Assembly: GCF_002754475.1 (NCBI RefSeq)
Contig: NZ_PEFL01000002.1
Coordinates: forward strand, 1 to 64,000
DNA from: Comamonas sp. 26
GTDB taxonomy: Bacteria > Pseudomonadota > Gammaproteobacteria > Burkholderiales > Burkholderiaceae_C
DNA length: 64,000 nt
Reading direction: 5' to 3'
Shown here: one piece after another, positions 1-49,461 of the stretch
Numbering within the stretch: the stretch's first letter is position 1
How the letters are laid out: each line of letters opens with the position of its first letter
Position numbers and translations under genes: made by a program
The notes under the pieces: model-generated
The model's input: the letters and a program-made list of their open reading frames with translations, nothing else
What the model was told of the DNA's origin: nothing
Databases searched by the model: none

Positions 1-2592
<2,592 letters not shown>

Positions 2593-2850
2593 CTATAACT
2601 TTGACGTCTCTTGCGAAACACAAAGCTCTAGATTTCAAAGACTGGTGAGGTCTTGCACCTCACGCGTTATGCCGTAATGTGAATATCTTTGGCTGTATCT
2701 TTCGATACAGCTTAGAGAATATTCGTCATTACTAAATATCTTTGCTTTCGCAAAATATTTGTTTTGACGCAATCAAAAAGTTGCTGATGGCACGGTGCAC
2801 AAACCTTGGTTTGCGCTTTCCACCAGCAACGCTGATTTCGACTCTATGAA

Positions 2851-2863
2851 TTTTTAAAGAACA
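2851..2863 (-). promoter_or_regulatory. boxA antitermination element of the 23S spacer
   Basis: The minus strand reads TGTTCTTTAAAAA, close to the boxA consensus TGCTCTTTAACA, and sits 260 bases upstream of the 23S 5' end, where a second boxA is expected in rrn operons. NusB/S10-dependent antitermination is the established role of such sites. Confidence 0.7.
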
Positions 2864-2880
2864 GCCTATTGATCAAAGAT

Positions 2881-2919
2881 CAATATAAAAGCAGTCTGCT
2901 TCAGACTGCTTTTATATTG
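2881..2919 (-). repeat. perfect 18-bp inverted repeat in the rrn spacer
   Basis: Arms 2881-2898 and 2902-2919 are exact reverse complements with a 3-base loop. The arm sequence begins CAATATAAAAGCAGTCTG. It lies between tRNA-Ala and the boxA, so the transcript would form a long uninterrupted stem, a plausible RNase III substrate. It has no U-tract, so a terminator is unlikely. Confidence 0.85.
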
Positions 2920-3010
2920 AATTTCTGTTTTCTTGCTTCTCAACCTCATGCCTTGCAACATCTGCTGAGCCAACGATTATAGCACCTTCAGGCGCTATCA
3001 TTTTTAAACT

Positions 3011-3086
3011 TGGTGGAGGATGACGGGATCGAACCGACGACCCCCTGCTTGCAAAGCAGGTGCTCTCCCAGCTGAGCTAATCCCCC
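3011..3086 (-). tRNA. tRNA-Ala (TGC)
   Basis: 76-nt cloverleaf on the minus strand: begins GGGGGATTAGCTCAG, anticodon stem CCTGC/GCAGG around loop TTTGCAA (anticodon TGC), T-arm GGTTCGATCC, and an encoded CCA at 3011-3013. Part of the rrn spacer. Confidence 0.98.
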
Positions 3087-6677: not shown

Positions 6678-7682
6678 CTAGGAATTGTACCAATCGAGAG
6701 TTAGCCCCCGGCGCTCGACAAAACCGCGTCCCACCTTGATATGGATGCGGTGCCCTCGCGTAGTACAAACACTGATCTGTTGCATGAGCTGTGAAAGCTG
6801 GGCTGCCGTAGGCGTTGTGCCATAAATAGAGCGCAGCCAGAAGCGCAGCACATTGCCCAGCCGCACCGTAGTTAAAGTCTGCAATGCCTTGATATGCGGC
6901 GGGGTGCCCACTATCTGCAAATCAACCGCTGCCTGCTCATCCAGCAATTCAGACGCCTGCGCACAATGGGCGCTACTGCGGGCAAAGGTGCTGCGAAATT
7001 GTGGAAAGACTTGCTCCAGCACCGGCAGCAACTGCGCCCGTATGCGATTGCGCGTGTAAGCCTGATCAGTATTAGTGGGATCCTCCACCCAGCTCACACC
7101 CCGCAGACGCAGCCAGTCTCTTAGCACCTGCCCGGGCACAGCCAGCAAAGGGCGAAACCATTCAAGCTGCGCCCGTTGCCAATGCGAAGGCATAGCCGCC
7201 AAACCAGCCACCCCGGCACCGCGTGACAGCGCCAGCAACAAAGTCTCGACCTGATCATCCGCATGCTGCGCCAAAGCCAGAGAGCGCACAGGCTCCAGCG
7301 CCACGGCATCGGCACTTGACCAGTCTTGCTCCGCAGCACCAATCAAGGCTTCGTACCGGCCTTGGCGAGCCGCATCTTCCGGGCTTTGACCTTGGGCATT
7401 TCGCGCATCAATAGCGCAGACTTTGAGCGCAATGCCGTGCCGCGCACACAGTTGCTCACAGTGCTTCTGAAAATCATCTGCCGCCGCCTGCAAGCCGTGA
7501 TGGACGTGAATCGCCCTCACCTGCCCCGGCCAGCGCGCATGGCAGGCCAGAAGCAAAGCGCACGAATCTGCTCCACCACTGAAAGCCACCGCCAGCGGCA
7601 AAGGTGGATTAAAAGCGGCCACGGCAGCATCTACCAACGCAGCCGAGGCATTCAGCAAGTCAGCATCGGACTTGGTTTGCAT
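6678..7682 (-). CDS. tilS: tRNA(Ile)-lysidine synthase
   Basis: 334 aa. Converts C34 of the CAU-anticodon tRNA-Ile to lysidine using ATP and lysine, so that the tRNA reads AUA codons; essential in most bacteria. The PP-loop motif AFSGGADSCALLL (about residues 33-45) and the HHGLQ and QHADDQVETLLL motifs are present, followed by a shortened C-terminal domain. Same strand and same order between accA and lysC as in other Burkholderiales. An AT-rich 165-base gap with the accA terminator and a dispersed repeat separates it from accA, so it probably has its own promoter. Confidence 0.94.
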   Translation of the reverse strand: MQTKSDADLLNASAALVDAAVAAFNPPLPLAVAFSGGADSCALLLACHARWPGQVRAIHVHHGLQAAADDFQKHCEQLCARHGIALKVCAIDARNAQGQSPEDAARQGRYEALIGAAEQDWSSADAVALEPVRSLALAQHADDQVETLLLALSRGAGVAGLAAMPSHWQRAQLEWFRPLLAVPGQVLRDWLRLRGVSWVEDPTNTDQAYTRNRIRAQLLPVLEQVFPQFRSTFARSSAHCAQASELLDEQAAVDLQIVGTPPHIKALQTLTTVRLGNVLRFWLRSIYGTTPTAAQLSQLMQQISVCTTRGHRIHIKVGRGFVERRGLTLDWYNS

Positions 7683-7713
7683 TGCAAATAGACTCCAGAT
7701 TCATACTTCAATC

Positions 7714-7755
7714 GCAGCTAGCGCTTTCTGTATAAGGGCTAGAGGCTTATTTCAC
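7714..7755 (+). repeat. dispersed AGCGCTT element, copy 1
   Basis: Between tilS and accA. Reads GCAGCTAGCGCTTTCTGTAT then AAGGGCTAGAGGCTTATTT; the AGCGCTT half-site and imperfect AAGGGCT partner match the other copies listed (14285, 23566, 37641, 41769). Confidence 0.6.
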
Positions 7756-7782
7756 TCAAAACCCTGCTTAGCCAGCCGCAAA

Positions 7783-7808
7783 AACAAATGGCTCCCGAAG
7801 GAGCCATT
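7783..7808 (-). terminator. terminator of accA
   Basis: Arms AATGGCTCC (7787-7795) and GGAGCCATT (7800-7808) with loop CGAA; on the minus strand followed by TGTTTTTG. It lies 40 bases past the accA stop. Confidence 0.85.
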
Positions 7809-7847
7809 GTGCGCAAGCGCCAGCCAAGCAGATGCTTTAGCGCTAGC

Positions 7848-8825
7848 TTAGCTGTTGTCCGCCTTGGTATCAGAGAACTTGCCGTAGCTCTGAATACGCT
7901 CGTAGCGGCGATCTTGCAGCTCCTTGGGCTTCAGATCCGACAGCTGACGCAGAGCATCGCCCAGCGCACGCTTGAGGAAAGCGCCCATTTGCTTGGTATC
8001 GCGGTGAGCGCCACCGACGGGTTCGTTGACGATCTTGTCAACCAGACCCAGCGCTTTCAGGCGATGGGCGGTGATGCCCATGGCGTCTGCCGCTTCTTGG
8101 GCCTTTTCACCCGTTTTCCACAGAATGGAAGCACAGCCTTCGGGACTGATCACAGAGTACACGGAGTACTGCAGCATCAGCACCTGATCAGCCACGGCAA
8201 TAGCCAGTGCACCGCCCGAGCCACCTTCACCAATGATGGTGGTGATGATGGGGGTTTGCAGCTGAGCCATCTCATAGATGTTGCGGCCAATGGCTTCGGA
8301 CTGACCACGCTCTTCAGCGTCGATACCAGGGAAGGCACCGGGCGTATCCACAAAAGTGAACACGGGCAGCTTGAACTTCTCTGCCGTCTTCATCAGGCGC
8401 AGAGACTTGCGATAGCCCTCAGGGCGCGTCATGCCAAAGTTGCGCAGAGTGCGCTCTTTGGTATCACGGCCTTTTTGATGACCAATCACCATGCAGGGCT
8501 GGCCGTTGAAACGGGCCAGACCACCGATGATGGACTGATCGTCCGCAAAATGGCGATCACCGTGCATTTCGACAAAGTCAGTAAAGCACTCACGCACATA
8601 GTCAAGCGTGTAGGGACGCTCGGTATGACGGGCAATCTTGGTGATCTGCCAAGGGGTCAGATCACTGTAGATATCCTTAGTCAGCTGCAGGCTTTTTTTG
8701 CTGAGCTGATCAATCTCTTCCGAGATATCGACTGCGCTTTCAGTCTGCACATAACGCAGTTCTTCGATTTTGGATTCGAGTTCTGCAATGGGCTGCTCAA
8801 AATCCAGAAAGTTCTTTTTCGCCAA
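7848..8825 (-). CDS. accA: acetyl-CoA carboxylase carboxyltransferase subunit alpha
   Basis: 325 aa from a TTG start at 8825. Alpha half of the carboxyltransferase that moves the carboxyl group from carboxybiotin to acetyl-CoA, the first step of fatty-acid synthesis. The protein begins [12 protein letters not shown], as family members do, and contains the crotonase-fold motifs [10 protein letters not shown] and [10 protein letters not shown] around residues 160-205. The TTG is chosen because AAGGAG lies 7 bases upstream and because upstream ATG codons would add a segment unlike the family. A weak start codon may keep AccA matched to AccD; that part is inference. Confidence 0.93.
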
Positions 8826-37640: not shown

Positions 37641-37694
37641 CAAAAAAGCATCTAGCGCTTGCTAATCAAGCGCTATCAGCTATCAAATCAGAAG
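37641..37694 (-). repeat. dispersed AGCGCTT element, copy 6 (best-preserved palindrome)
   Basis: TAGCGCTTG (37653-37661) and CAAGCGCTA (37667-37675) are perfect 9-bp inverted repeats with a 5-base loop; on the minus strand the head reads TTTGATAGCTGATAGCGCTT. It overlaps the hmuR stop codon at 37688-37690. Confidence 0.7.
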
Positions 37695-39940
37695 TCCTGA
37701 ACCAGGGACACGCGCACATTGCGGCCCGGCTGGGTAAAGGCATCGGCAATTTGCGTGACATTGGTTAGGCTGCGCACATCGGCCCAACGCCATTGCTTTT
37801 TGTCGGTCAAGTTGTAAATGCCCACGTTCAGGCGTGTACCGGGGCGGATACGCCACTGCGCGCTCAGATCCAGCACCGTGGCGCTGGGGCTGAGCCAGGC
37901 GTTGGCCACCGAGACATCCTTGGCCTTTTTGCCCGCCCAGTGCGATGCGCTGAGCTGCACGCCCACGTTCGAGGTGTCATAGCGCACACCCAGCACCAGT
38001 TGCTGGGGCGAGATGGTGTCTACCCCTTTGCCGGTGTTTCTATCCTTGCCCTCGGTGTAGCCGTAGGCCGCATTGGTGCGCCAGTTGCCGCCGGCGAACT
38101 TGCCCCAGTCGTAATCGGCCTTGAGTTCAAAGCCGCTGATGCGCACCCGGTCCATATTCACAGACTGGAAGGTGGCGGGGTTGGCGCGGTTACCGTACTG
38201 GCCCGAGACCAGTACCTGGTCCTGGATGAAGTCCTTGTAATTGCCGGTAAAGGCCGCAGCATCCAGTCGCAACGCGTTCATGCGTGCGCGCAAGCCCAGC
38301 TCGAAGGTATTGCTCTTTTCGGGCTTGAGGTTGGGGTTGGGAATGCTGCGATAAGACGCCAGCGGATTCTCAAAGAATGCGTTGACCTGACCCGCATTGG
38401 GCGCACGGAAGCCAGCGGCGTAATTGCCATAGACCGACCATGCGTCATTCATCTGGAACATGGCACCCAGCTTGGGCGAGACCGCCGAGTCAGAGTTGCT
38501 AACCACAGGGCTGGCAAAACCCTGCTGCTTGGGCTTGAGGCTGTAGTGCTCGGCACGCACGCCGGGCGTCAGGCTGAAAGCGCCATAGTGCAGCTCGGCC
38601 TGTGCAAACAGCGCCGATGAGGTTTCCGTGGTGTCAGGGAAGCGCTTGAGCGGGAAGCTCTCGCCCGCTGGCGGCGTAATGCCGTTTTGCTCATTGACCA
38701 CCTTGCCACGTGTGTAATCCACGCCGTAGGTGAATTTGCCGCTGACGCCATTGCTCCAGCGCAATGTCTTGCCAGCCTGTGCATGCAGTTGCAGTGTGTC
38801 CTCGTCATAAGTCACATCGCGTTCGCGATACGGCAGGCCGATGCGAGTTTCGGTCACAAATTCGCGCGAATCTGCACGTTGATAGCTAGCCATCAGCTTG
38901 AGCTCATCGGCCAGTGCCGTATCCAGCTGCTGCCACTGACCTTGCCAAGTAGCGCGCCAGCGCTTCATGGTGGTCTCGGCCTGTGAATCGCTGACAGTGG
39001 CGCTGCGAGCACTCAGCAGGTCGTAGCTGGCGCGCTTGTCCACGTTCTCCAGCGTGAAGACATGCTTTTGCACGGCCGATGGCGTGTAGACCAGCTTGCC
39101 GAACAGCGAATGGCTCTTGTCTTTTTCAGGGTTGGGCGTGGTGCGATTGGCTCCCACCACATCGTTGGTGCCCATGTTTTCCAGAGCACTGGAGCGACCA
39201 ATGCCGGCGGAGAGCAACCAGCTCCACTCGGGGTTGACGCGCCCGGCAATCGTCGCACCCACGCGCTTGCCGTTGTCCGCACCGTCATAGCTGATCGAAG
39301 CACGGCCCGCAATGGTTTTGCCGTCCTTGAGCAAATCATCGGGCTGCATGGTGATGAAATTGACCAGACCGCCCATGCCGTCCGAGCCATAGAGCGCGGG
39401 CACGGCACCGCGCAGAATTTCCACGCGCTGCACCAGGCCCAGATCCAAAGAGTCACGGCCAAAGGCATTGGCACTGAAGACATAGCTGCGCGGCAAACGC
39501 ACACCATCGACCAGCATCAGTACGCGATTACCATCCAGCCCGCGAATATTGAAGCCGCTGTTCTGGTCACGCCCCGTGGGCGCTCCTGCCAGCGAAAAAC
39601 GCGCTGGACTGCGCGGCACGTCCACATTGGGCAGCTTGGCGGCAAGCTCGCGGATATCTCCGATCTGCTCCTCTTCCATCTGCTTGGCGTCGATGACGTC
39701 GACGGTCATAGGCAGGCTGTCGGCATCCTGCTCGTCGCGCGAGGCACTGATGACCACATCGCGCAGCACGGGCGTGGAACGGTCGGCGCGTGCCGCTGCG
39801 ACTTGAACCGTTTCAGAAGACTGCTGCTGAGCCTGAGCAGAAATGGCAGCGCATGCCAGAGCACAGGCCAGAACCAGGGGACGAATGTCGGAGCGCGGCG
39901 CCAACGCGGCGTGAGCGTGCGAAACAGTGGCGGAAGCCAT
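37688..39940 (-). CDS. hmuR: TonB-dependent outer-membrane heme receptor
   Basis: 750 aa. Imports heme or hemoproteins across the outer membrane with TonB energy. Signal peptide about 1-38 (LVLACALACAAISAQAQ), then a TonB box-like DVVISASRDEQ (about 61-71), plug domain with FNIRGLDGNRVLMLVDGVRL, and a 22-strand barrel. The GFRAPNAGQVNAFFEN motif (about 517-532) followed by NPNLKPEKSNTFELG is the FRAP/NPNL pattern of heme receptors; final residue Phe. First gene of the hmu operon, under a Fur box. Confidence 0.94.
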   Translation of the reverse strand: MASATVSHAHAALAPRSDIRPLVLACALACAAISAQAQQQSSETVQVAAARADRSTPVLRDVVISASRDEQDADSLPMTVDVIDAKQMEEEQIGDIRELAAKLPNVDVPRSPARFSLAGAPTGRDQNSGFNIRGLDGNRVLMLVDGVRLPRSYVFSANAFGRDSLDLGLVQRVEILRGAVPALYGSDGMGGLVNFITMQPDDLLKDGKTIAGRASISYDGADNGKRVGATIAGRVNPEWSWLLSAGIGRSSALENMGTNDVVGANRTTPNPEKDKSHSLFGKLVYTPSAVQKHVFTLENVDKRASYDLLSARSATVSDSQAETTMKRWRATWQGQWQQLDTALADELKLMASYQRADSREFVTETRIGLPYRERDVTYDEDTLQLHAQAGKTLRWSNGVSGKFTYGVDYTRGKVVNEQNGITPPAGESFPLKRFPDTTETSSALFAQAELHYGAFSLTPGVRAEHYSLKPKQQGFASPVVSNSDSAVSPKLGAMFQMNDAWSVYGNYAAGFRAPNAGQVNAFFENPLASYRSIPNPNLKPEKSNTFELGLRARMNALRLDAAAFTGNYKDFIQDQVLVSGQYGNRANPATFQSVNMDRVRISGFELKADYDWGKFAGGNWRTNAAYGYTEGKDRNTGKGVDTISPQQLVLGVRYDTSNVGVQLSASHWAGKKAKDVSVANAWLSPSATVLDLSAQWRIRPGTRLNVGIYNLTDKKQWRWADVRSLTNVTQIADAFTQPGRNVRVSLVQDF

Positions 39941-40100: not shown

Positions 40101-40271
40101 AATAAGCGTTACAAAAAGAGGAAAAACAGCTTGAACAAGCGCTTGTCATTCACTGACTCCAGGTTCATGATCCGCCCTGTTTTCACCGCTATTTCTTTAC
40201 GACCATGAACCCTGACCGAAGTCACGGGTCCATCTCACCCCAGCGCTGAAGTCATGGCCGCAGGCCTTGCA

Positions 40272-40317
40272 GCAGAGTCCGGGAGAGAGGGGCCCATCCT
40301 CCACCCGGAGAGTCTGC
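40272..40317 (+). promoter_or_regulatory. structured leader hairpin upstream of the Nramp-like gene
   Basis: GCAGA (40272-40276) pairs with TCTGC (40313-40317) and TCCGGG (40278-40283) with CCCGGA (40304-40309), with an asymmetric GAG bulge. The GC-rich leader extends to 40390. A metal-responsive leader is possible but no known riboswitch consensus was matched. Confidence 0.4.
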
Positions 40318-40395
40318 TGCGCAACCAAGGCGCATGCCGCTCCCCGCCCGCCACTGCTGCGGCCATGCCTTGCGCATGGCTTCCGGGAGCCGCCC

Positions 40396-41709
40396 ATGAA
40401 ACACTTCTTCGCCCGGAAATTCCCTCACGGATTTCTGCTCATCCCTCGCAGCATGGCTGCTGCCCGCCGCCTGGGTCCAGGCCTGATTACCGGCGCTGCC
40501 GACGACGATCCAAGTGGCATTGCCACCTACTCGCAAGCTGGCGCTCAATGGCGCTTTGGTCTGGTGTGGATGCTGTTGCTGACCACGCCGCTGATGATTG
40601 GCATTCAGATGCTGTCTGCCCGCATCGGCTGGGCCACCGGCCGTGGGCTGGCTGCCAATATGGTGACGCTGTGTCCGCGCTGGCTCACGCGCAGCCTGAT
40701 TGCGCTGCTGGTGGTTGCCAACACCATCAATATTGCGGCCGACATTGGCGCCATGGCCGAGGCCGCACGCCTGATCGTCGGGGGCTCGCCGGTGTTGTTC
40801 AGCCTGCTGTTTGGCGCAGTGTGCCTGCTGGCTCAGGTGTTTTTCTCGTACGAGCGCTCGGTGCGGCTTCTCAAATGGCTGACGCTGTCGCTGCTCGCCT
40901 ATTTCGCCGTGGTGATGGTGGTGCATGTGCCGCTCAAGCAAATGACGATTGAGTCACTGCAGCCCTGGCACTTCATGCCAGCTCACGCTTCGCTGAGCGA
41001 CTATGCCGCCATGATGGTGGCCGTGCTGGGCACCACCATCAGCCCCTATCTTTTCTTCTGGCAAGCCTCGCAGGAGGTGGAAGACCAGCGCCTGCGCCCC
41101 GACACCGCTGCGCTGCGCAAGTTCCCCACCTATGTGCAAGAGCATCTGGCCCGTATCCGGCTGGACACGACTGTGGGCATGCTGCTGTCCAACGGCGTGG
41201 CGCTGAGCATTGTGGTGGCCACCGCCGTCACGCTGAATCTGAATGGCATCACCGAAATTCAGACCTCCGCACAGGCTGCCGAGGCACTGCGCCCCGTCGC
41301 GGGCGACCTGGCTTTTACGGTGTTTGCGCTGGGCATCATCGGCACAGGGCTGCTGGCCGTACCAGTGCTGGCGGGCTCGGCCGCCTATGCGGTGAGCGAG
41401 GTTCTGGGCTGGAAGGCCAGTCTCTCGCACGGCTTTCATGAAGCACGCGGTTTTTACGGGCTGATCATTGCCGCCACAGGTCTTGGCACGGTTCTGGGCA
41501 TGCTGGAGGTCGACCCCATCAAAGCGCTGGTCTGGAGCGCCGTGGTCAACGGCGTGATCTCGGTGCCCATCATGGCCGTGATGCTGTGGCTGGGCCAATC
41601 GCCACGCATCATGGGCGAGCTGACTATCTCGCTGCGCCACCGCCTGCTGGGCTGGGGCGCTACGCTGCTGATGGGCGTAGCCGTTGTGGTGATGCTGGTG
41701 ACGCTGTAG
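40396..41709 (+). CDS. Nramp-family divalent metal transporter, non-canonical
   Basis: 437 aa from ATG 40396 (GGGAG upstream). About 11 TM helices with the Nramp fold. The TM1 motif reads DDDPSG (residues 36-41) instead of DPGN, and the TM6 motif is TTISPYLFFWQ instead of a methionine-containing MPHNLYLH. In canonical Nramp transporters these residues bind Mn2+/Fe2+ and the methionine selects against Ca/Mg; here the methionine is missing. The protein is therefore a member of the Nramp-related branch, whose substrate may be different (Mg2+ has been shown for related proteins). Monocistronic. Confidence 0.85.
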   Translation: MKHFFARKFPHGFLLIPRSMAAARRLGPGLITGAADDDPSGIATYSQAGAQWRFGLVWMLLLTTPLMIGIQMLSARIGWATGRGLAANMVTLCPRWLTRSLIALLVVANTINIAADIGAMAEAARLIVGGSPVLFSLLFGAVCLLAQVFFSYERSVRLLKWLTLSLLAYFAVVMVVHVPLKQMTIESLQPWHFMPAHASLSDYAAMMVAVLGTTISPYLFFWQASQEVEDQRLRPDTAALRKFPTYVQEHLARIRLDTTVGMLLSNGVALSIVVATAVTLNLNGITEIQTSAQAAEALRPVAGDLAFTVFALGIIGTGLLAVPVLAGSAAYAVSEVLGWKASLSHGFHEARGFYGLIIAATGLGTVLGMLEVDPIKALVWSAVVNGVISVPIMAVMLWLGQSPRIMGELTISLRHRLLGWGATLLMGVAVVVMLVTL

Positions 41710-41732: not shown

Positions 41733-41769
41733 AAAAAAGGACTGCAGATTTATTCCACAGTCCTTTTTT
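41733..41769. terminator. bidirectional terminator after the Nramp-like gene
   Basis: AAAAAAGGACTG (41733-41744) / CAGTCC then TTTTTT (41758-41769): stem with A-tract and T-tract on opposite sides, functional in both directions. It probably once also terminated ahpF, whose remnant follows at 41811. Confidence 0.88.
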
Positions 41770-41815
41770 CATAGCTGCAAGCGCTTAATCCATAAGCGCT
41801 ACAGCCATTTTTAGT
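41769..41815 (+). repeat. dispersed AGCGCTT element, copy 7
   Basis: TCATAGCTGCAAGCGCTTAA then TCCATAAGCGCTACAGCC. Perfect 8-bp arms AGCGCTTA (41780-41787) / TAAGCGCT (41793-41800). It touches the TAA of the ahpF remnant. Confidence 0.7.
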
Positions 41816-41885
41816 TGCGAATCAGGTGATCAAAGGCCTACAGGGCTGCCATGGCAGCCGCGCCCGCCGCAATCACGATTTGCTT
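41811..41885 (-). pseudogene. remnant of the ahpF 3' end
   Basis: Read on the minus strand, codons encode [15 protein letters not shown], a TAG stop, then AFDHLIRN and TAA. The intact ahpF ends [24 protein letters not shown] (47154-47228); nucleotide match is 63 of 75 bases and stops abruptly at 41885. The remnant thus has an in-frame stop where ahpF has a serine. It overlaps the last 13 bases of msrA. Confidence 0.9.
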
Positions 41886-42580
41886 GCCTTAGCCGCGTGA
41901 ACCAGCGCTGGCGCAACCGTATAACTCTCGGGGAACAGCTTTCTCAGCTCGTCGAGCTTCGGCAGATCGTTGATCGCGATATAGGGCTGATTCGGATGCA
42001 GTGTCAGATAGTCTTGGTGATAGTCCTCGGCGACGTAAAAAGGCTTGGACAGTTCAACCGTCGTGGCCAGCGGCTTGCCGTAGGTTTTGGTCTGGTTGAG
42101 TTGGGCGATGTAGTCCTTCGCGATGCGCGCCTGCTCGGCATTTTCCGCAAACACGGTCGAGCGGTATTGCGTGCCGGTATCGGGCCCCTGGCGGTTCAGC
42201 TCGGTCGGGTCGTGCGCCACCGAGAAATAGATTTGCAGCAACTTGCCGTAGCTGACTTGCTGAGGGTCGTAGGTGATACGCACCGCTTCGGCATGGCCAG
42301 TACGGCCCGTGCCTACATCCTCGTAGCGCGCCATCTTGGCAGCGCCTCCGGCATAGCCAGAAAGGGCATTGCTTACGCCCTTGACATGTTGGAACACGCC
42401 TTGGACGCCCCAGAAGCAGCCACCGGCGAAGACTGCACTTTCGGTCTTTGCTGTGGGTGCCGCAATCAGGTCGACCGTGGGAGACGGTACGCGGCGGGAC
42501 GCTTCCGCGAAGCTGGGCACGGCATACCCAAGCAGCGCTGCAGCGGCCAAGCTGCCGGCGGTCAGTGCGAAGGACTTCAT
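41873..42580 (-). CDS. msrA: exported peptide-methionine (S)-S-oxide reductase
   Basis: 235 aa from ATG 42580 (GGAAGAAATCTC upstream; an in-frame ATG at 42604 is less likely). Reduces methionine-S-sulfoxide. Residues 1-30 form a signal peptide (MKSFALTAGSLAAAALLGYA.. FAEA), so the enzyme acts in the periplasm, unlike the usual cytosolic MsrA. Catalytic GCFWG at about 54-58; no cysteine is present in the C-terminal tail, so recycling must use another route. The last SKS and stop are encoded by the ahpF remnant, meaning the original C-terminus was replaced. Downstream of the Met-rich repeat gene. Confidence 0.92.
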   Translation of the reverse strand: MKSFALTAGSLAAAALLGYAVPSFAEASRRVPSPTVDLIAAPTAKTESAVFAGGCFWGVQGVFQHVKGVSNALSGYAGGAAKMARYEDVGTGRTGHAEAVRITYDPQQVSYGKLLQIYFSVAHDPTELNRQGPDTGTQYRSTVFAENAEQARIAKDYIAQLNQTKTYGKPLATTVELSKPFYVAEDYHQDYLTLHPNQPYIAINDLPKLDELRKLFPESYTVAPALVHAAKASKS

Positions 42581-42629
42581 GAGATTTCTTCCAGTAGGTT
42601 TCAACGCCAGAGTCGAGGTGATGGGCTCA

Positions 42630-42651
42630 ATCCGTCATTCACGTGACGGAT
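42630..42651 (-). terminator. hairpin between the repeat protein gene and msrA
   Basis: ATCCGTCA (42630-42637) / TGACGGAT (42644-42651), extendable to 11 bp with a G-U pair; no T-tract. May act as a partial terminator or RNA stabiliser so that the repeat protein is made in excess over MsrA. Confidence 0.45.
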
Positions 42652-42674
42652 CGAGCAAATCGAGCAGACCGAAT

Positions 42675-42959
42675 TCAGTACTTGGACATCGAGTCCTTGG
42701 ACATGTCGTCCTTGCCCATGCCATCCTTTTTCATCCCATCCTTGGACATTGAATCCTTCTTCATACCGTCCTTTTTCATGCTGTCTTTCTTCATGCTGTC
42801 CTTGCCCATGGAGTCTTTCTTCATGCCGTCCTTGGACATGGAGTCCTTCGCCATCGAATCCTTGGCCATGCTGTCCTTGGACATGTCATCGGCGGCAAAG
42901 GCCGAGGCGCCAGCGACGGCGAGACAAGTGGCAAGCAGGGTTGTGGTGAGCTTGTTCAT
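42675..42959 (-). CDS. mrpX: methionine-rich MxKDx pentapeptide-repeat exported protein (MrpX-like)
   Basis: 94 aa. Signal peptide 1-22 (MNKLTTTLLATCLAVAGASA, cleaved after AFA), then 13 pentapeptides MxKD[S/G/D] plus a final MSKY; the mature chain has a Met every five residues and alternating Lys/Asp. Matches the pentapeptide MXKDX repeat proteins; MrpX of Azospira suillum, a hypochlorite scavenger, has this nature. Proposed role: sacrificial methionines in the periplasm, oxidised by HOCl or similar and re-reduced by MsrP and MsrA next to it. AAGGAA before ATG. The 15-base repeat unit can gain or lose copies. Confidence 0.9.
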   Translation of the reverse strand: MNKLTTTLLATCLAVAGASAFAADDMSKDSMAKDSMAKDSMSKDGMKKDSMGKDSMKKDSMKKDGMKKDSMSKDGMKKDGMGKDDMSKDSMSKY

Positions 42960-43061
42960 TTGGATTCCTTCAGTTTGGGTGTCATCTTCAAAAGATGGGC
43001 TTACGTTCCAGAGAACTCGGCCTCGCGCTTTCTTCGGCAGTCGAGTGGTTGCAACAACCCC

Positions 43062-43853
43062 TCAGCTCCCTCCGAACCAGTTGTAGCCCTGGTCTTCCCA
43101 GTAGCCACCGGAATAGGTGTTGGTAACGAACATCGCCTGGATGTACTTGGGGTTCTTGTAGCCAAGCTTTGTAGGCATGCGCAGCTTCATCGGAAAGCCA
43201 TATTTGGGCGGCAGCGGCTGCCCGTCATAGCTCAGAGTAAGCAACGTCTGCGGATGCAAGGCGGTAGGCATGTCGATACTGGTGTAGTAGTCGTCCACGC
43301 ATTTGAAGCCCACGTATTTGGCGCTGGTGTCGGCTCCGATACGACGCAGAAAATCGGAAAAACGCACACCACCCCACCTGCCGATAGCGCTCCAGCCTTC
43401 CACGCAAATGTGGCGGGTAATCTGCTCCTCCTGCTGCATGGCACGCAGCTCGGCCAGGCTCCAGGCATGCTTGTCGGCGACCATGCCGGTCACTTCGAGT
43501 CGATAGCTGGCCTCGTCCACCTCGCGGATTTCGTCCTCACCGTAGTAGGCGTTGAAGGGAAAGGGCCGCGTGATCTCAGCTTCGGTATAGGTAGGAGCCA
43601 GCTGCGACGGACTAAAAATCAGGCCCTGTATCTTGTCGTTGAAGCGTGAAATTTTGCTGAGCGCGGCTTCGACATGTTTGTCATCGCTGATGCTGCAACC
43701 GGTCAGCAGCGACAGGCCGCCGAGCGTAAGCGTGCGTTGCAAAAAAATGCGGCGTGCGGGCTGATCGAGCTGCTTGGCAATCTGCGTGCGGGCTTCACCC
43801 AACACGGCGTCAGCGTCGATATCGAGCAAGGTGTGGGGCTTGAAGATTTTCAT
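43062..43853 (-). CDS. Tat-exported molybdopterin oxidoreductase, MsrP/YedY1-like
   Basis: 263 aa from ATG 43853, overlapping the cytochrome gene by 4 bases. Sulfite-oxidase-fold enzyme; the molybdenum-ligand cysteine is C150 in RHICVEGWSAIGRWGG. The N-terminus has a twin-arginine RRIFLQR (34-40) within a long n-region, and the h-region ends LLTGC (C53), which fits a lipobox, so it may be a Tat-exported lipoprotein. The likely reaction is reduction of methionine sulfoxide in periplasmic proteins with electrons from the adjacent cytochrome. It is shorter than E. coli MsrP and is closer to the YedY1 type of chlorite-response loci. Confidence 0.87.
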   Translation of the reverse strand: MKIFKPHTLLDIDADAVLGEARTQIAKQLDQPARRIFLQRTLTLGGLSLLTGCSISDDKHVEAALSKISRFNDKIQGLIFSPSQLAPTYTEAEITRPFPFNAYYGEDEIREVDEASYRLEVTGMVADKHAWSLAELRAMQQEEQITRHICVEGWSAIGRWGGVRFSDFLRRIGADTSAKYVGFKCVDDYYTSIDMPTALHPQTLLTLSYDGQPLPPKYGFPMKLRMPTKLGYKNPKYIQAMFVTNTYSGGYWEDQGYNWFGGS

Positions 43854-44515
43854 GATGTTTTGGGCACGCGGCCTCGGATCATCGTGAGCAAGGTGCGGGG
43901 CACCAGGGCCACCATCACCAGATGCACGACAAGAAATGCAACGATGGCTGCCATGGCGAAGAAGTGGATACGGCGCGCAAACTCGTAGCCCCCCAGCAAT
44001 TCGCGCAGCACAGGGAATTGCACCGACTTCCACAGCACCAAGCCCGACAGAACGATCACGATCAGATCGAGCATCACGAACAGATAGGCCAGCTTTTGCA
44101 CGTTGTTGTATTGACGCGGGTCGCCATGCGAAAGCTTGCCTTTAAGCGCCTCCAGCAAGTCGTGCAGCACGCCATGCGGCGTGAGGGGAAAGAACTTGCG
44201 GGCGAGCCGACCGCTGGCGATGTTGAGCGTCAAGTACAAAAGACCGTTGAATACCAGCAACCACATGGCCGCGAAATGCCACTGCAGCGCACCACCCAGC
44301 CAGCCACCGAGAGTGATGACGGCTGGTATGGAGAAGGGAAAAATCGGCGATGCGTCATAGATACGCCAGCCGCTCATCACCATGATCACCACGGCCAAGG
44401 CATTGAGCCAGTGCGTGATGCGCATCCACAGTGGATGAATGGGCCGAGCGGCCAGATCCACCGGGCCTGCCTGGACATTTTTTGGGGCGATGATGGTGCG
44501 GGTCATGGGGCACAT
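43850..44515 (-). CDS. b561-type cytochrome b, electron donor to the molybdoenzyme
   Basis: 221 aa (alternative ATG at 44506 gives 218). Inner-membrane di-heme cytochrome of the Ni/Fe-hydrogenase/b561 type with four to five TM helices; candidate heme histidines are in RITHWLNAL (about 34), ALQWHFAAMW (about 79), RIHFFAM and VHLVMV (about 182-200). Passes quinol electrons to the periplasmic molybdoenzyme, taking the role of MsrQ but with a different fold signature (YedZ1 type). First gene of the minus-strand module; no clear Shine-Dalgarno at either ATG. Confidence 0.85.
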   Translation of the reverse strand: MCPMTRTIIAPKNVQAGPVDLAARPIHPLWMRITHWLNALAVVIMVMSGWRIYDASPIFPFSIPAVITLGGWLGGALQWHFAAMWLLVFNGLLYLTLNIASGRLARKFFPLTPHGVLHDLLEALKGKLSHGDPRQYNNVQKLAYLFVMLDLIVIVLSGLVLWKSVQFPVLRELLGGYEFARRIHFFAMAAIVAFLVVHLVMVALVPRTLLTMIRGRVPKTS

Positions 44516-44540
44516 TGTTGGACTGGCCCCATGGCGGATG

Positions 44541-44569
44541 TATCACGCAAAGTTCAATTAATTGTGATA
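44541..44569. promoter_or_regulatory. candidate operator between the redox operon and the two-component system
   Basis: Inverted repeat TATCAC (44541-44546) / GTGATA (44564-44569), with a 10-bp palindrome CAATTAATTG (44555-44564) inside. Located in the 89-base divergent promoter region, so a site for the neighbouring OmpR-type regulator is plausible; not demonstrated. Confidence 0.4.
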
Positions 44570-44604
44570 ACTAAAAAACGCCTATCGCGAGAGAATGGCT
44601 CTCT

Positions 44605-45330
44605 ATGGACTCCCCTAAACGCGTACTGATCGTCGAAGACGACCTCCACATTGCGGAACTTTTGCGCATGCATCTTCGCGATGAAGGCTATGTCGTTGAG
44701 CATGCCGCTGACGGCGATACAGGCCTGCGCGAATTGGAGCGCAGTCACTGGGATGCACTGGTGCTTGACCTGATGTTGCCGGGCATCGACGGATTGGAAA
44801 TATGCCGTCGAGCCCGTACCATGGCCAGGTACACCCCCATCATCATCATCAGCGCCCGCTCCAGCGAGGTACACCGCATCCTCGGCTTGGAACTCGGCGC
44901 AGACGACTACCTGGCCAAGCCTTTTTCGGTGCTGGAACTGGTCGCCCGCGTCAAGGCACTGCTGCGGCGCACCGATGCACTCGCTCGCAATGCCCGCATG
45001 GATTCGGGCAGTCTCTCGATTGGCGAGTTGGATATCGAGCCACTGGCGCGTGAAGTGCGCATCGATGGCAAGCTCATAGAACTCACTCCGCGCGAGTTTG
45101 ACCTGCTGCACTTCTTTGCCCTCAGCCCCGGAAAAGTGTTCTCGCGGCTGGACCTGCTCAACCACGTCTGGGGCTATCACCACGATGGCTACGAGCACAC
45201 CGTCAACACGCATATCAACCGGCTACGCATAAAAATCGAAATCGACCCCGCCCAGCCGCGCCGCATTCTCACGGTGTGGGGGCACGGCTACAAGCTGTCG
45301 ACCTCTGCCAACGGGGAGACCGCATCATGA
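44605..45330 (+). CDS. OmpR-family response regulator
   Basis: 241 aa. Receiver domain with acidic pocket EDD (11-13), phosphoacceptor D55 (VLDLMLPG), T/S and K106-region (LAKPFS), followed by an OmpR/PhoB winged helix (LTPREFDLLHFFA about 155, HTVNTHINRLRIKIE about 200). Activates transcription after phosphorylation by the next gene's kinase. Divergent from the cytochrome/molybdoenzyme operon across 89 bases, so that operon is the most likely target. Overlaps the kinase gene by 4 bases. Confidence 0.94.
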   Translation: MDSPKRVLIVEDDLHIAELLRMHLRDEGYVVEHAADGDTGLRELERSHWDALVLDLMLPGIDGLEICRRARTMARYTPIIIISARSSEVHRILGLELGADDYLAKPFSVLELVARVKALLRRTDALARNARMDSGSLSIGELDIEPLAREVRIDGKLIELTPREFDLLHFFALSPGKVFSRLDLLNHVWGYHHDGYEHTVNTHINRLRIKIEIDPAQPRRILTVWGHGYKLSTSANGETAS

Positions 45331-46808
45331 TGACTTTGTCGAGGCGGCTGTCGGTCGTATTCGCGGTGTTGCTGCTGGTCTGCTGCGGTGCCTCGGTCTG
45401 GCTGCAGATTCGCGCCACCAGCAAGCACGAGCAAGAAGTCATTCAGCGTTTGTCGAGTGGCTTGGCGGCACACATTGCCGAGAACGCGGAGTTGATGAAG
45501 CCCGGCGGCCTGAACCAGGATGCGGTGAAAGATCTGTTTGACAAGCTCATGGCGGTCAACCCCAGCGCAGAACTCTATCTCTTGGGTCTGGACGGCCGCA
45601 TCGAAGCACAGGCCGCACCGCAGGGTCACCTCAAGCGCGACAAGGTCAACTTAAAGCCTGTCCATGAATTACTCGCTGGCGGAGCCCTGCCCATTGTGGG
45701 CGACGACCCGCGCAGCCCTGATGCCTCCAAGGTGTTCAGCGTCGCCCCGCTGCGCGTGGCTGGGCACGATGCCGGCTATGTTTATGTCGTGCTGCAGGGT
45801 GAAGATCACGATGCCTTGGTCGCCAACACGGCAGCCGACAATGTGCTGCACACTACTCTGTGGTTGATGGGCGTGGTTGCGCTATTGGTCCTGCTCGCCG
45901 GCCTTGCCGCATTTCGCCTCATCACCCGCCCACTGCGCGAGCTGACCGAAGTGGTGCAGCGTTTCGATACCGAGGGCATAGCATCGCTGGAAAATGAGGC
46001 ACCCAAGCTAGCACGCCTGTCACAAGGCAACGATGAAATTTCGCATTTAGGCCAGGCTTTCACGCAAATGGCCCACCGCATCGCCGAGCAATGGCGCGAG
46101 CTGACGCTGCAAGATCAGCAACGCCGCGAACTATTTGCCAATATTTCACACGACCTGCGCACGCCTCTTACATCACTGCATGGCTATCTGGAAACCTTGA
46201 TGCTCAAGGCCGACTCGCTCGACGAGACGGATCGACGACGCTACCTGGAAATCGCTCTGGGCCAGAGCCGCAAGGTCGGACGTCTTGCGCAAGAAGTGTT
46301 CGAATTGGCACGACTCGAATACGGCGTGGTCAAGCCCGAGAAGGAAAGCTTTGCTCTGGCGGATCTTGTGCAAGACGTATTCCAGAAATTTGAACTGGCT
46401 GCCGAGGCACGTCATCAACGTCTCACGCCCGACATTGCACCGGGCCTGCCCGTGGTGTCAGCCGACCTGGGCATGATTGAGCGTGTTTTGACAAATTTGC
46501 TCGACAATGCCATCCGCCACACCCCAATGGGTGGGGAGATCGTAGTGCAGTTACGTGCTCACAATGCCGGCGTGTCAGTCCAGGTCAGCGATACGGGAGG
46601 TGGTATTCCGAGCGAGCTTCAGAAGTCGCTATTCATGCGACCAGTATTCATGAGTGGCTCGCGCACCGAAAGCTCCGGCAGCGGCGGGTTGGGCCTGGTG
46701 ATCGTAAAACGCATACTGCAACTACACGGCAGCGACATTCAACTGGTGCCGCTCCCAGAGAAAGGAGCGGTATTCCGTTTTCAACTCAGCAGTATCGATC
46801 GCCTTTGA
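45327..46808 (+). CDS. membrane sensor histidine kinase
   Basis: 493 aa from ATG 45327 (overlap ATGA with the regulator). TM1 about 8-28, periplasmic sensor loop about 29-170, TM2 about 172-195, HAMP, dimerisation domain with H275 (ANISHDLRTPLTSLHGYL), and a catalytic domain with N box NLLDNAIRHTP (about 395), DTGGGIP and GSGGLGL. The periplasmic loop has no cysteine; in an oxidative-stress module methionine oxidation could be the cue (it includes ENAELMKPGG and DKLMAVNPSA), which is speculative. Confidence 0.92.
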   Translation: MMTLSRRLSVVFAVLLLVCCGASVWLQIRATSKHEQEVIQRLSSGLAAHIAENAELMKPGGLNQDAVKDLFDKLMAVNPSAELYLLGLDGRIEAQAAPQGHLKRDKVNLKPVHELLAGGALPIVGDDPRSPDASKVFSVAPLRVAGHDAGYVYVVLQGEDHDALVANTAADNVLHTTLWLMGVVALLVLLAGLAAFRLITRPLRELTEVVQRFDTEGIASLENEAPKLARLSQGNDEISHLGQAFTQMAHRIAEQWRELTLQDQQRRELFANISHDLRTPLTSLHGYLETLMLKADSLDETDRRRYLEIALGQSRKVGRLAQEVFELARLEYGVVKPEKESFALADLVQDVFQKFELAAEARHQRLTPDIAPGLPVVSADLGMIERVLTNLLDNAIRHTPMGGEIVVQLRAHNAGVSVQVSDTGGGIPSELQKSLFMRPVFMSGSRTESSGSGGLGLVIVKRILQLHGSDIQLVPLPEKGAVFRFQLSSIDRL

Positions 46809-47153: not shown

Positions 47154-48710
47154 TTAGTTTCGGATCAGGTGATCAAAAGCCGACAGTGCAGCCGTAGCAC
47201 CCGCACCCGCCGCAATCACAATCTGCTTGTACGGCACCGTGGTGCAGTCACCGGCGGCGAACACGCCAGGCAGGTTGGTCTGGCCCTTGGCATCCACAAT
47301 GATTTCGCCAAACTTGCTCAGCTCCACCGTGCCCTTGAGCCATTCGGTGTTGGGCACCAGACCGATCTGGACAAACACACCTTCCAGTTCGACATGGTGT
47401 TCCTCGCCGGTCACACGGTCCTTGTAGCGCAGGCCATTGACCTTGCCATTGGCACCGGTGATTTCGGTGGTCTGTGCATTGGTATGCACCGTCACATTGG
47501 GCAGGCTGTCCAACTTCTTGACCAGCACGGCATCGGCCTTGAGCTGCTCCGCAAACTCCACCACCGTGACATGGGCCACCAGACCCGCTAGGTCGATGGC
47601 TGCCTCGATACCCGAGTTGCCACCACCGATGACCGCGACGCGCTTGCCCTTGAACAGGGGACCGTCGCAATGCGGGCAGTAGGCCACGCCCTTGTTCTTG
47701 TACTCGGCTTCGCCGGGCACATTCACATTGCGCCAGCGGGCACCGGTCGACAAAATCACGGTCTTGGCTTTGAGCGCTCCACCATTGGCCAGTTGCACTT
47801 CAACCAGACCACCAGGCTGCGCAGCGGGAATCAGCTTCTCGGCGCGCTGCAGGTTCATGATGTCCACATCGTAAGCACGGGTGTGGGCTTCCAGTGCGGC
47901 AGCAAACTTAGGACCGTCGGTTTCCAGCACAGAGATGTAGTTCTCAATCGCCAGCGTGTCGTTGACCTGACCGCCAAAGCGCTCAGCAGCTACACCAGTG
48001 CGAATGCCTTTGCGAGCGGCGTACACAGCCGCCGCCGCACCTGCAGGGCCGCCACCGATCACCAGCACATCAAACGCATCCTTGGCCGACAGCTTGGCCG
48101 CTTCACGCGAGGCTGCGCCGGTATCGAGCTTGGCCACGATTTCTTCGATGGTCATACGGCCGGAGCCAAAGACGCTGCCATTCATGAACACCATGGGCAC
48201 AGCCATGATTTCGCGGTCGTTCACTTCCTGCTGGAAAGCACCGCCTTCGATCACAGTCGTCTTGATCTTGGGGTTCAGGATGGCCATGAGCGACAGCGCC
48301 TGCACCACGTCCGGGCAGTTGTGGCAGGTCAGGCTCATGTAGGCGTCGAAGTTGTAATCGCCGTCCAGAGACTTGATCTGCTCGATCAGATCCTGCTCCA
48401 CCTTGGGTGGATGACCGCCCGTCCACAGCAGAGCCAGCACCAGTGAGGTGAACTCGTGGCCCAGTGGCAGACCGGCAAAGCGCAGCTGGGTGTCAGTGCC
48501 CTTGCGCTGCAGCAGGAACGAGGGCTTGCGGGCGTCGTTGCCATCGGTGCGCAGCGTGATCTTGTCACTGCGCAGGGACTGGATGGTTTGCAGCAGATCG
48601 CGCATCTGGGCGCTGGTCTCGCTGTCATCCAGAGAAGCCACCAGCTCAAACGGCTGCTGCACACGTTCCAGGTAGGCGGCGAGTTGGGCTTTGAGTTGAT
48701 TGTCAAGCAT
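47154..48710 (-). CDS. ahpF: alkyl hydroperoxide reductase subunit F
   Basis: 518 aa. FAD/NADH protein that re-reduces AhpC. N-terminal thioredoxin-like double domain with CHNC (about 128-131), FAD-binding [17 protein letters not shown] (about 219), NADH motif [15 protein letters not shown] (about 362) and active-site CPHC (about 344). Normal length. Its 3' 75 bases are duplicated at 41811-41885. ahpC lies 175 bases upstream with a terminator between, so ahpF is probably expressed partly by read-through. Confidence 0.96.
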
Positions 48711-48806
48711 GGTGGATTCCTTTGAATTTTGAGTTGTTGATGCAGTGCAGCAAGGTGGTTTCTAGCCACTTGCCCGCCCATAAAAGCAAAAACTGGGCGA
48801 AAAAAA

Positions 48807-48846
48807 GCCGGACGAACGGACACCGGGTGCCTGAGCGTCGTCCGGC
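48807..48846 (-). terminator. terminator between ahpC and ahpF
   Basis: GCCGGACGA (48807-48815) / TCGTCCGGC (48838-48846); on the minus strand the 3' arm is followed by TTTTTTT (48800-48806 complement). Would lower ahpF relative to ahpC, the usual stoichiometry. Confidence 0.85.
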
Positions 48847-48885
48847 CTTCAGAGCGCCTGCGCGCTCAGCCGATAACAATCAGGC

Positions 48886-49461
48886 TTAGATCTTGCCGAC
48901 CAGATCCAGCGAAGGAGTGATCGTGTTAGCGCCTTCCTTCCACTTGGCAGGGCACACTTGGCCGGGGTGAGCGGCAGTGAACTGAGCAGCCTTCAGCTTG
49001 CGCAGAGTTTCCGACACGTCACGAGCGATTTCGTTGGAGTGCACTTCCATGGTCTTGATCACGCCATCGGGGTTGATCACGAAAGTACCGCGCAGAGCCA
49101 GACCTTCTTCAGGGATGTGCACGCCGAAAGCGTTGGTCAGTTGGTGCGTAGGATCGCCAACCAGAGGGAACTTGGCCTTGCCCACAGCGTCGGAAGTTTC
49201 GTGCCACACCTTGTGCGAGAAGTGGGTGTCGGTTGTCACGATGTAGACCTCAGCGCCAGCCTTCTGGAACTCAGCGTAGTTGTCCGCTGCGTCTTCGATT
49301 TCGGTGGGGCAGTTGAAGGTAAAGGCTGCGGGCATGAAAATCAGAACCGACCACTTACCCTTCAGGCTCTCTTCGGTCACGGTGATGAATTCACCCTTGC
49401 CGTTGCGGTTCACATAAGCTTCGGTCTTGAACGGTTGGACTTGTGTATTGATCAGAGACAT
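48886..49461 (-). CDS. ahpC: alkyl hydroperoxide reductase subunit C (2-Cys peroxiredoxin)
   Basis: 191 aa. Reduces H2O2, organic peroxides and peroxynitrite. Peroxidatic C51 in AAFTFNCPTEIED, resolving C170 in HPGQVCPAKW. Length and motifs match the E. coli AhpC group that partners AhpF. Codon use is highly biased, consistent with strong expression. Confidence 0.97.
   Translation of the reverse strand: MSLINTQVQPFKTEAYVNRNGKGEFITVTEESLKGKWSVLIFMPAAFTFNCPTEIEDAADNYAEFQKAGAEVYIVTTDTHFSHKVWHETSDAVGKAKFPLVGDPTHQLTNAFGVHIPEEGLALRGTFVINPDGVIKTMEVHSNEIARDVSETLRKLKAAQFTAAHPGQVCPAKWKEGANTITPSLDLVGKI

Follow-up and report, generated by a model that had tools for sequence, protein, structure and literature searches.

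The stretch of DNA analyzed here, the first 64,000 nucleotides of contig NZ_PEFL01000002.1 from Comamonas sp. 26 (hereafter, the window), contains a compact group of genes that quite probably encodes a periplasmic methionine (Met) redox cycle under two-component control, an Orh-type variant of the MrpX/YedY1 system. An earlier note, drawn up from the sequence alone, had read the locus as MrpX-like. The comparisons that follow support this reading, in which a Met sink in the periplasm is served by its own quinol-linked molybdo-reductase, under two-component control and alongside an exported Met sulfoxide reductase (MsrA). Gene content, export signals, operon order and an operator-like element, together with the fact that this element co-occurs with the kinase and in relatives precedes two reductive branches, are all read from sequence; the oxidant, the flow of electrons and the substrate we infer, the last two from the protein families involved.

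Genes and layout of the locus

Four genes lie on the minus strand and together span 41873-44515. In order of transcription, they encode a membrane cytochrome b of the b561/Ni_hydr_CYTB type (43850-44515; PF01292, 87 bits), a molybdoenzyme of the sulfite oxidase (SUOX) fold that is predicted to be a lipoprotein exported by the twin-arginine translocation (Tat) pathway (43062-43853; Oxidored_molyb PF00174, 109 bits), an exported Met-rich protein with 13 MxKDx repeats that resembles MrpX and BcrX (42675-42959; TIGR02953, with a signal peptide at about 42894-42959), and an exported MsrA with a single cysteine (41873-42580; TIGR00401, 172.6 bits versus a cut-off of 108.1). The first two genes share a 4-base overlap. 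Divergent from this operon on the plus strand (44605-46808) are the genes for an OmpR-type response regulator resembling OrhR (44605-45330; PF00072 and PF00486) and an OrhK-like sensor histidine kinase with a periplasmic PAS/Cache-like sensor (45330-46808; HisKA/HATPase). Between the divergent regulator and cytochrome b genes, at 44543-44572 (minus strand), resides an operator-like element, AGTTATCACAATTAATTGAACTTTGCGTGA, which contains the inverted repeat TCACA-N15-CGTGA. Profile scores and sequence confirm that a repeat protein, a Tat-type molybdoenzyme, its cytochrome b partner and an exported MsrA are encoded on one strand, as the earlier note had described; the span that it gave, 42675-44515, holds the first three genes and leaves the MsrA gene outside. 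Export signals were assessed by eye from sequence and hydropathy, and scans of 41750-44700 for sigma-70 promoters and terminators returned no match above chance.

A shared element upstream of kinase-linked operons

Related loci were taken as the best 80 of 584 confirmed stretches from a scan of genome contigs, or 81 loci with the window, and their accessory and regulator genes were identified by homology searches. A linked kinase and regulator is present at 38 of the 81, sigF/nrsF-like genes at 11, and neither at 25 for which at least 1.2 kb of upstream sequence was available; the other seven have too little upstream sequence. The 30-bp element AGTTATCACNNNTNNTTNAANNNNNCGTGA lies upstream of the cytochrome gene in all 38 kinase-linked loci, a count that is partly circular because the 80 loci were the original source of the element. 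It is matched without mismatch in 25 of these, with one or two mismatches in 11, and with three or four in two (L046 and L059). None of the 11 sigma-linked loci carries it, and a sigma-type locus of Caballeronia has no copy at up to six mismatches. Conversely, TGTAAC, which forms part of the promoter type reported for BcrS in Brucella, where bcrXQP is induced by hypochlorous acid (HOCl) under an extracytoplasmic function (ECF) sigma factor (PMC8315932; this and the other papers cited by accession are represented here by excerpts), occurs at eight of the 11 sigma-linked loci versus none of the upstream regions of the 38 kinase-linked ones. Neither a sigF/nrsF homologue nor TGTAAC was found at the window locus, which is thus not of the SigF/NrsF (ECF) type.

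The window copy at 44543-44572 is the single site in its genome, and its geometry resembles that of a described operator. OrhR binds a fragment of the c3566 promoter in electrophoretic mobility shift assays, and the proposed site is TCACA-N15-TGTGA (PMC8550376), to which the TCACA-N15-CGTGA of the window is identical in geometry and nearly so in sequence. The homologous locus of Escherichia coli ATCC 25922 carries TCACA-N15-TGTGA, and elements with zero mismatches are found on an E. coli plasmid from river water and on a Rahnella plasmid. Judging from this conservation and from the geometry shared with a site at an OrhR-bound promoter, we infer that the response regulator would bind at 44543-44572.

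The E. coli plasmid pKMi006_1 (L152, 4200-8173) carries a complete module of kinase, regulator, cytochrome b, molybdoenzyme and MxKDx protein beside the insertion sequence IS66. A search with the regulator gene gave matches at 71 E. coli plasmid and 287 chromosome places, the neighborhood having been examined for pKMi006_1 only. With a module beside IS66 and 71 plasmid matches, the module may be mobile.

Separate operons preceded by the same element

Among the 25 loci with neither linked regulator type, 11 carry the element, and all 11 belong to Pseudomonas. Seven of the Pseudomonas genomes without a kinase linked to the molybdo-operon were tested, and each encodes a kinase orthologue elsewhere (58-60% identity across some 487 residues and 570-579 bits, the next kinase scoring 106 bits). 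In all seven, this kinase gene is divergent from a gene for MsrB whose N-terminus is Tat-like; one copy of the element separates the two genes, and another stands before the molybdo-operon. In six, MsrB is followed by a DipZ-like gene. When element copies were counted genome-wide in 18 genomes at up to two mismatches, a procedure in which the reversed control pattern matched once, two sites were found in six of these seven Pseudomonas genomes, and the seventh has two extra overlapping sites with no sought gene nearby. A Pseudomonas genome whose molybdo-operon lacks the MxKDx gene has one site, at the kinase/MsrB side only, nine of 10 Burkholderiales genomes have one site each, and the tenth has none.

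Since the element had been derived from module loci, 300 Burkholderiales genomes that were not picked for the module were also scanned; they were drawn evenly and are independent of the module loci except for the window's own genome. At up to one mismatch, the element occurs in five of the 300, at six sites, and the reversed control pattern gave one match. Kinase orthologues of at least 58% identity are present in 10 of the 300, the next match being at 43%, and all five element-bearing genomes fall within these 10 (hypergeometric probability 1.3e-8, or 3.9e-7 when the window's genome is left out). The six sites precede cytochrome-molybdoenzyme genes (in the window and two others), MsrB-DipZ genes (two) and an MsrA gene (one). 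One genome from the window's genus (G150) displays the split arrangement, with one element before an unlinked cytochrome-molybdoenzyme operon and another between the kinase/regulator pair and genes for a Tat-like MsrB and DipZ. At up to two mismatches, the element stands beside the kinase in six of the 10 kinase genomes, and in another genome (G175) there is a four-mismatch copy beside MsrB. The position of the element before both the molybdo-operon and the MsrB operon in relatives suggests that the regulon joins a quinol-fed, molybdenum-dependent branch to a thiol-fed Msr branch.

The MxKDx repeat protein

The Met-rich protein is 94 amino acids long and consists of 13 exact MxKDx units behind what appears by eye to be a Sec-type signal peptide, so that the predicted mature protein would have 14 Met in 72 residues. 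It scores 106.5 bits against the NCBIfam model penta_MxKDx (TIGR02953), for which the cut-off is 41. The 13 units are encoded by 13 distinct DNA 15-mers in which Met, Lys and Asp are preserved by synonymous codons, and this argues for a selected protein and against a DNA repeat artefact. In Bordetella genomosp. 2 (L032), two molybdoenzyme-MxKDx units (2253-3041 and 7066-7878) reside within 9 kb as an apparent tandem duplication.

Conceivably, the regulon serves mainly to repair many envelope proteins, with the MxKDx protein as no more than a minor decoy or a dispensable extra. This alternative is possible, though less likely than not. It is consistent with three of the 80 related loci (L047, L063 and L084), in which cytochrome b and the molybdoenzyme are retained with no MxKDx open reading frame (ORF) behind the latter, with the repair of SurA and Pal by canonical MsrP (PMC7759655), and with the peroxide phenotypes of uropathogenic E. 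coli (UPEC), which concern deletions of c3564-c3567 (PMC8550376). However, the MxKDx gene stands immediately downstream of the molybdoenzyme gene at the other 77 loci, and at L047, the MxKDx-less Pseudomonas locus, the element is missing from the molybdo-operon and present at the kinase-MsrB operon.

Response regulator and sensor kinase

The response regulator is 58% identical to its homologue in E. coli ATCC 25922, 66% to the E. coli plasmid copy and 73% to that of Rahnella, and the kinase is 43% identical to the ATCC 25922 kinase over 487 amino acids. Judged through the ATCC 25922 homologues, both of these divergently encoded proteins are homologous to OrhR and OrhK over their full length. 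Membership of the regulator in the HprR family was rejected (157.7 against a cut-off of 353).

Two Met residues and one cysteine of the kinase are strongly conserved: of 44 sequences, all retain Met74, 42 retain Met56, and 41 retain Cys18, which lies in the first transmembrane helix. In HprS, HOCl is sensed through two periplasmic Met residues, and a membrane cysteine is needed (PMC10151825, a review). By analogy, sensing in the window kinase may perhaps involve Met74 and Met56 together with Cys18. The structural model of the sensor (mean predicted local distance difference test score, pLDDT, of 77) has weak PAS/Cache-like (PAS/PDC-like) matches.

The same model also weakly matches CusS, which bears on a different proposal, namely that the Met-rich protein binds Cu(I) or Ag(I) and that the two-component system senses copper or silver. 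A Met-rich exported protein would suit such a role, 29 of 77 related MxKDx ORFs contain His somewhere beyond the first repeat, and msrPQ of E. coli is also induced by copper through CusSR (PMC9302797). We nonetheless judge a metal response improbable. Membership in the heavy-metal regulator families was rejected, the regulator and kinase scoring far under the cut-offs (170.7 versus 279.2 and 159.9 versus 292.6, respectively); the mature MxKDx protein of the window has zero His and zero Cys; and the accessory genes recognized are Msr and thiol-transfer genes, metal-efflux genes having been outside the search.

Hypochlorite, which the earlier note had proposed as the oxidant, is a plausible signal for this type of regulator. 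The signal described for OrhK/OrhR is instead hydrogen peroxide or tert-butyl hydroperoxide (PMC8550376), and HOCl is tied to the version controlled by a sigma factor. Genes named yedY/yedYZ, which may or may not correspond to the molybdoenzyme considered here, are upregulated in Pseudomonas fluorescens biofilms given sodium hypochlorite (PMC7464077, a review).

The molybdoenzyme and its cytochrome b partner

The N-terminus of the 263-residue molybdoenzyme has an RRxFL motif followed by a lipobox, which makes it a probable Tat lipoprotein. A strict twin-arginine plus lipobox pattern is found in 95 of 96 related molybdoenzyme ORFs (overlapping loci counted), and the remaining one has LGGC at this position. 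All 35 sequences aligned share Arg34, Arg35, Gly52, Cys53 and Cys150. Cys150 aligns to a Cys in MsrP, at a position that we take to be the molybdenum ligand.

The enzyme is not a canonical MsrP: it has a lipobox and a b561-type partner, and it scores 76.8 bits against the NCBIfam MsrP equivalog model, below the cut-off of 207. It is 30% identical to the MsrP of its own genome. By sequence, the closest protein of solved structure is E. coli YedY/MsrP, with sulfite oxidases matching as well, and a Foldseek ranking likewise places it closest to MsrP/YedY, in agreement with the sequence search. The AlphaFold model is poor (pLDDT 63.7), so no conclusions about the active site are drawn from it. From these sequence comparisons, the protein is probably a Met sulfoxide reductase of YedY-like type. 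The group 1B family of YedY-like sulfite oxidase family proteins comprises a molybdenum subunit of about 30 kDa with a different cytochrome partner (PMC7759655), and the window enzyme, which resembles this description in its size and its b561-type partner, may belong to the group.

It has to be asked whether the molybdoenzyme is instead a sulfite dehydrogenase-like or other oxidoreductase to which the Met-rich protein is unrelated, as its sub-threshold MsrP score and its sulfite oxidase matches could suggest. This seems very unlikely: scores against the SorA and SoxC models are even lower (52.4 and 38.4 bits), MsrP/YedY ranks first among proteins of solved structure both by sequence and, in the low-confidence model, by fold, the molybdoenzyme is strictly linked to MxKDx and Msr genes, and the group 1 YedY-like enzymes are probably all reductases (PMC7759655, a review).

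In place of MsrQ, a ferric-reductase-like membrane heme protein, the putative Met sulfoxide reductase is accompanied by a PF01292 cytochrome b in which His 35, 80, 130, 184 and 198 are invariant in 81 of 81 aligned sequences. This protein, rather than MsrQ, is the probable donor that passes electrons from quinol to the molybdoenzyme. In E. coli ATCC 25922, the cytochrome b gene (L155, 1125-1723) is annotated as frameshifted, and the kinase, regulator and molybdoenzyme genes are unflagged. A separate canonical MsrP-MsrQ pair was recognized by eye elsewhere in the window's own genome (C2:598826-599605, L002), which would give this organism two periplasmic molybdenum-dependent Met sulfoxide reductase systems. 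Azospira, likewise, is said to have two, YedY1 and YedY2.

The exported MsrA and a probable thiol-fed branch

The window MsrA has a hydrophobic N-terminal signal and one Cys in 235 residues, that of the catalytic GGCFWG motif, with no resolving Cys; the cytosolic MsrA frame of the same genome has four. A single Cys in the body of the protein is the rule in 42 of 43 related MsrA ORFs (L034 has two; the 43 include genes that were retrieved more than once). An exported MsrA with one Cys probably requires an outside thiol.

Where more than 2.2 kb of downstream sequence was available, MsrA is present at 25 of 33 kinase-linked loci, accompanied by MsrB in some cases and by a DipZ-like gene in others. 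The eight without MsrA in the stretch comprise five with no sought accessory gene and three with DipZ only, and these would be the argument for regarding MsrA as a chance neighbor outside the regulon, an idea to which we assign very little weight given its presence at the other 25, at five of 10 sigma-linked loci with the same downstream margin (four downstream and one, L060, upstream of the module), within the kinase-divergent operon in four of four Pseudomonas stretches read, and immediately behind the element in L159. In three of those Pseudomonas stretches (L125, L127 and L128), the order is MsrB, a DipZ-like protein of 591-592 residues and an exported MsrA; in the fourth (L126), MsrA directly follows MsrB.

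The earlier note had suggested that MsrA was present so that both sulfoxide stereo-forms might be repaired. Because MsrP reduces without stereospecificity, as described in PMC7402097, repair of both forms may not call for MsrA, and the sole MsrB found in the window's genome has no evident signal peptide; we have dropped this argument as weak.

Relationship to described systems

The UPEC system, in which OrhK/OrhR with c3566/c3567 protect against peroxide, is the closest to the one in the window (PMC8550376). It shares the divergent kinase and regulator, the cytochrome b, the molybdoenzyme, the Met-rich peptide and an inverted repeat with a 15-base spacer, and OrhK/OrhR together with c3566-c3568 directly anticipates the two-component version, so that this mode of control, at first put forward as new, had already been published for a homologous operon. 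The molybdoenzyme is 58% identical to its counterpart in ATCC 25922, and the cytochrome b is 57% identical to that of UTI89. The window differs from UPEC in its additional one-Cys exported MsrA and in a much more regular MxKDx repeat. A hemolysin operon is reported downstream in UPEC and has no counterpart among the genes named at the window (PMC8550376). A 2026 review on RTX toxins also appears to deal with the OrhK/OrhR system.

Several genes near the module in the window may be mentioned here. Genes for AhpF and AhpC (47154-49461) lie a few hundred bases past the kinase gene, with no operator copy there at three mismatches. A TonB-dependent receptor gene (37688-39940) and an apparent Nramp-type transporter gene (40267-41709) adjoin the module, both having been recognized by eye; the E. 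coli plasmid copy on pKMi006_1 is likewise near a TonB-dependent receptor gene.

In the SigF/NrsF-MrpX-YedY1 system of Azospira suillum, HOCl was reportedly shown to be the relevant oxidant for the sigma-factor version, in work by Melnyk in 2015. By description rather than by sequence, Azospira and the window share an exported Met-rich scavenger, a molybdenum-dependent Met sulfoxide reductase and a cytochrome, and they differ in the ECF sigma/anti-sigma control of the former (PMC4623255). The BcrS/AbcS-bcrXQP system of Brucella, again likened by description, shares an MXKDX protein, a molybdo-reductase and a cytochrome, and it too is under ECF control (PMC8315932). HprSR-MsrPQ of E. coli has two-component control, a periplasmic quinol-linked Met sulfoxide reductase and Met-based sensing in common with the window, but it has a different box (CATTACAAAATTGTAATG) and MsrQ rather than a b561-type cytochrome, and no Met-rich protein is named in the excerpts (PMC9302797, PMC10151825). 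Finally, the perchlorate islands of P. militaris MP and D. hydrogenophilus LT-1 have exported MsrA/MsrB beside mrpX and yedYZ, which deprives the dedicated MsrA of the novelty first claimed for it; the regulators named there are sigF/nrsF (PMC4623255).

A proposed redox cycle and its regulon

Taken together with these precedents, the following sequence of events can be proposed. An oxidant in the envelope would activate the kinase, perhaps through Met74 and Met56 of the sensor and the transmembrane Cys18, by analogy with HprS; the response regulator would then bind the element at 44543-44572 and switch the operon on. The secreted MxKDx protein, by extension from MrpX and BcrX, would absorb oxidant on its 14 Met residues. 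As their families imply, the cytochrome b would pass electrons from quinol to the membrane-anchored molybdoenzyme, which in turn would reduce the Met sulfoxide residues of the MxKDx protein as well as those of other envelope proteins. The exported one-Cys MsrA could form a second, thiol-fed branch acting on Met-S-sulfoxide, a branch that in several relatives would also include an exported MsrB and a DipZ-like thiol transporter.

Beyond the circularity of the kinase-linked count, several observations weigh against this scheme. Fourteen of the 25 loci without a linked regulator are also without the element, and two of these (L047 and L058) have TGTAAC, which indicates that the module is also controlled in ways beyond those seen here. 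The spacer in UTI89 is one base shorter, and Achromobacter G015, with a linked two-component system, has no site genome-wide at two mismatches. Three of the 10 kinase genomes (G115, G302 and G075, corresponding to L167, L168 and L169; kinases of 58-61% identity) carry neither the element nor any Msr homologue within the flanks that were searched, so not every kinase orthologue serves this regulon in its own vicinity; members of this kinase family may possibly act on a different target in these genomes. Met56 is replaced by Leu in two E. coli copies and in Rahnella. As to the re-reduction of a periplasmic one-Cys MsrA, no DipZ orthologue was found in the window's own genome, the best match scoring 49 bits.

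The more general proposition is that the Orh type is a compact regulon of Beta- and Gammaproteobacteria in which one periplasmic Met pool draws on two electron supplies: quinol, which feeds a lipid-anchored molybdoenzyme by way of a b561-type cytochrome, and cytosolic thiols, which feed one-Cys exported MsrA and MsrB by way of a DipZ-like transporter, with the MxKDx protein as a shared, rechargeable sink and with the 30-bp operator as a diagnostic feature that predicts scattered members. We consider this broader proposition evenly balanced between right and wrong. Within the open-licence literature, searched by titles and the beginnings of abstracts, none of the papers listed was seen to deal with the shared operator, with the split regulon or, in this context, with an exported MsrA that has one Cys, and none listed apart from those cited describes the kinase/MsrB/DipZ regulon of Pseudomonas.

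If the proposition is correct, one short DNA element and one kinase would unite two routes of Met sulfoxide repair that are usually studied apart, and the same MxKDx module would be under sigma-factor control in some bacteria and under two-component control in others. The main value of the operator may be that it links the two branches, quinol-fed and thiol-fed, as a single small regulon that is amenable to testing.

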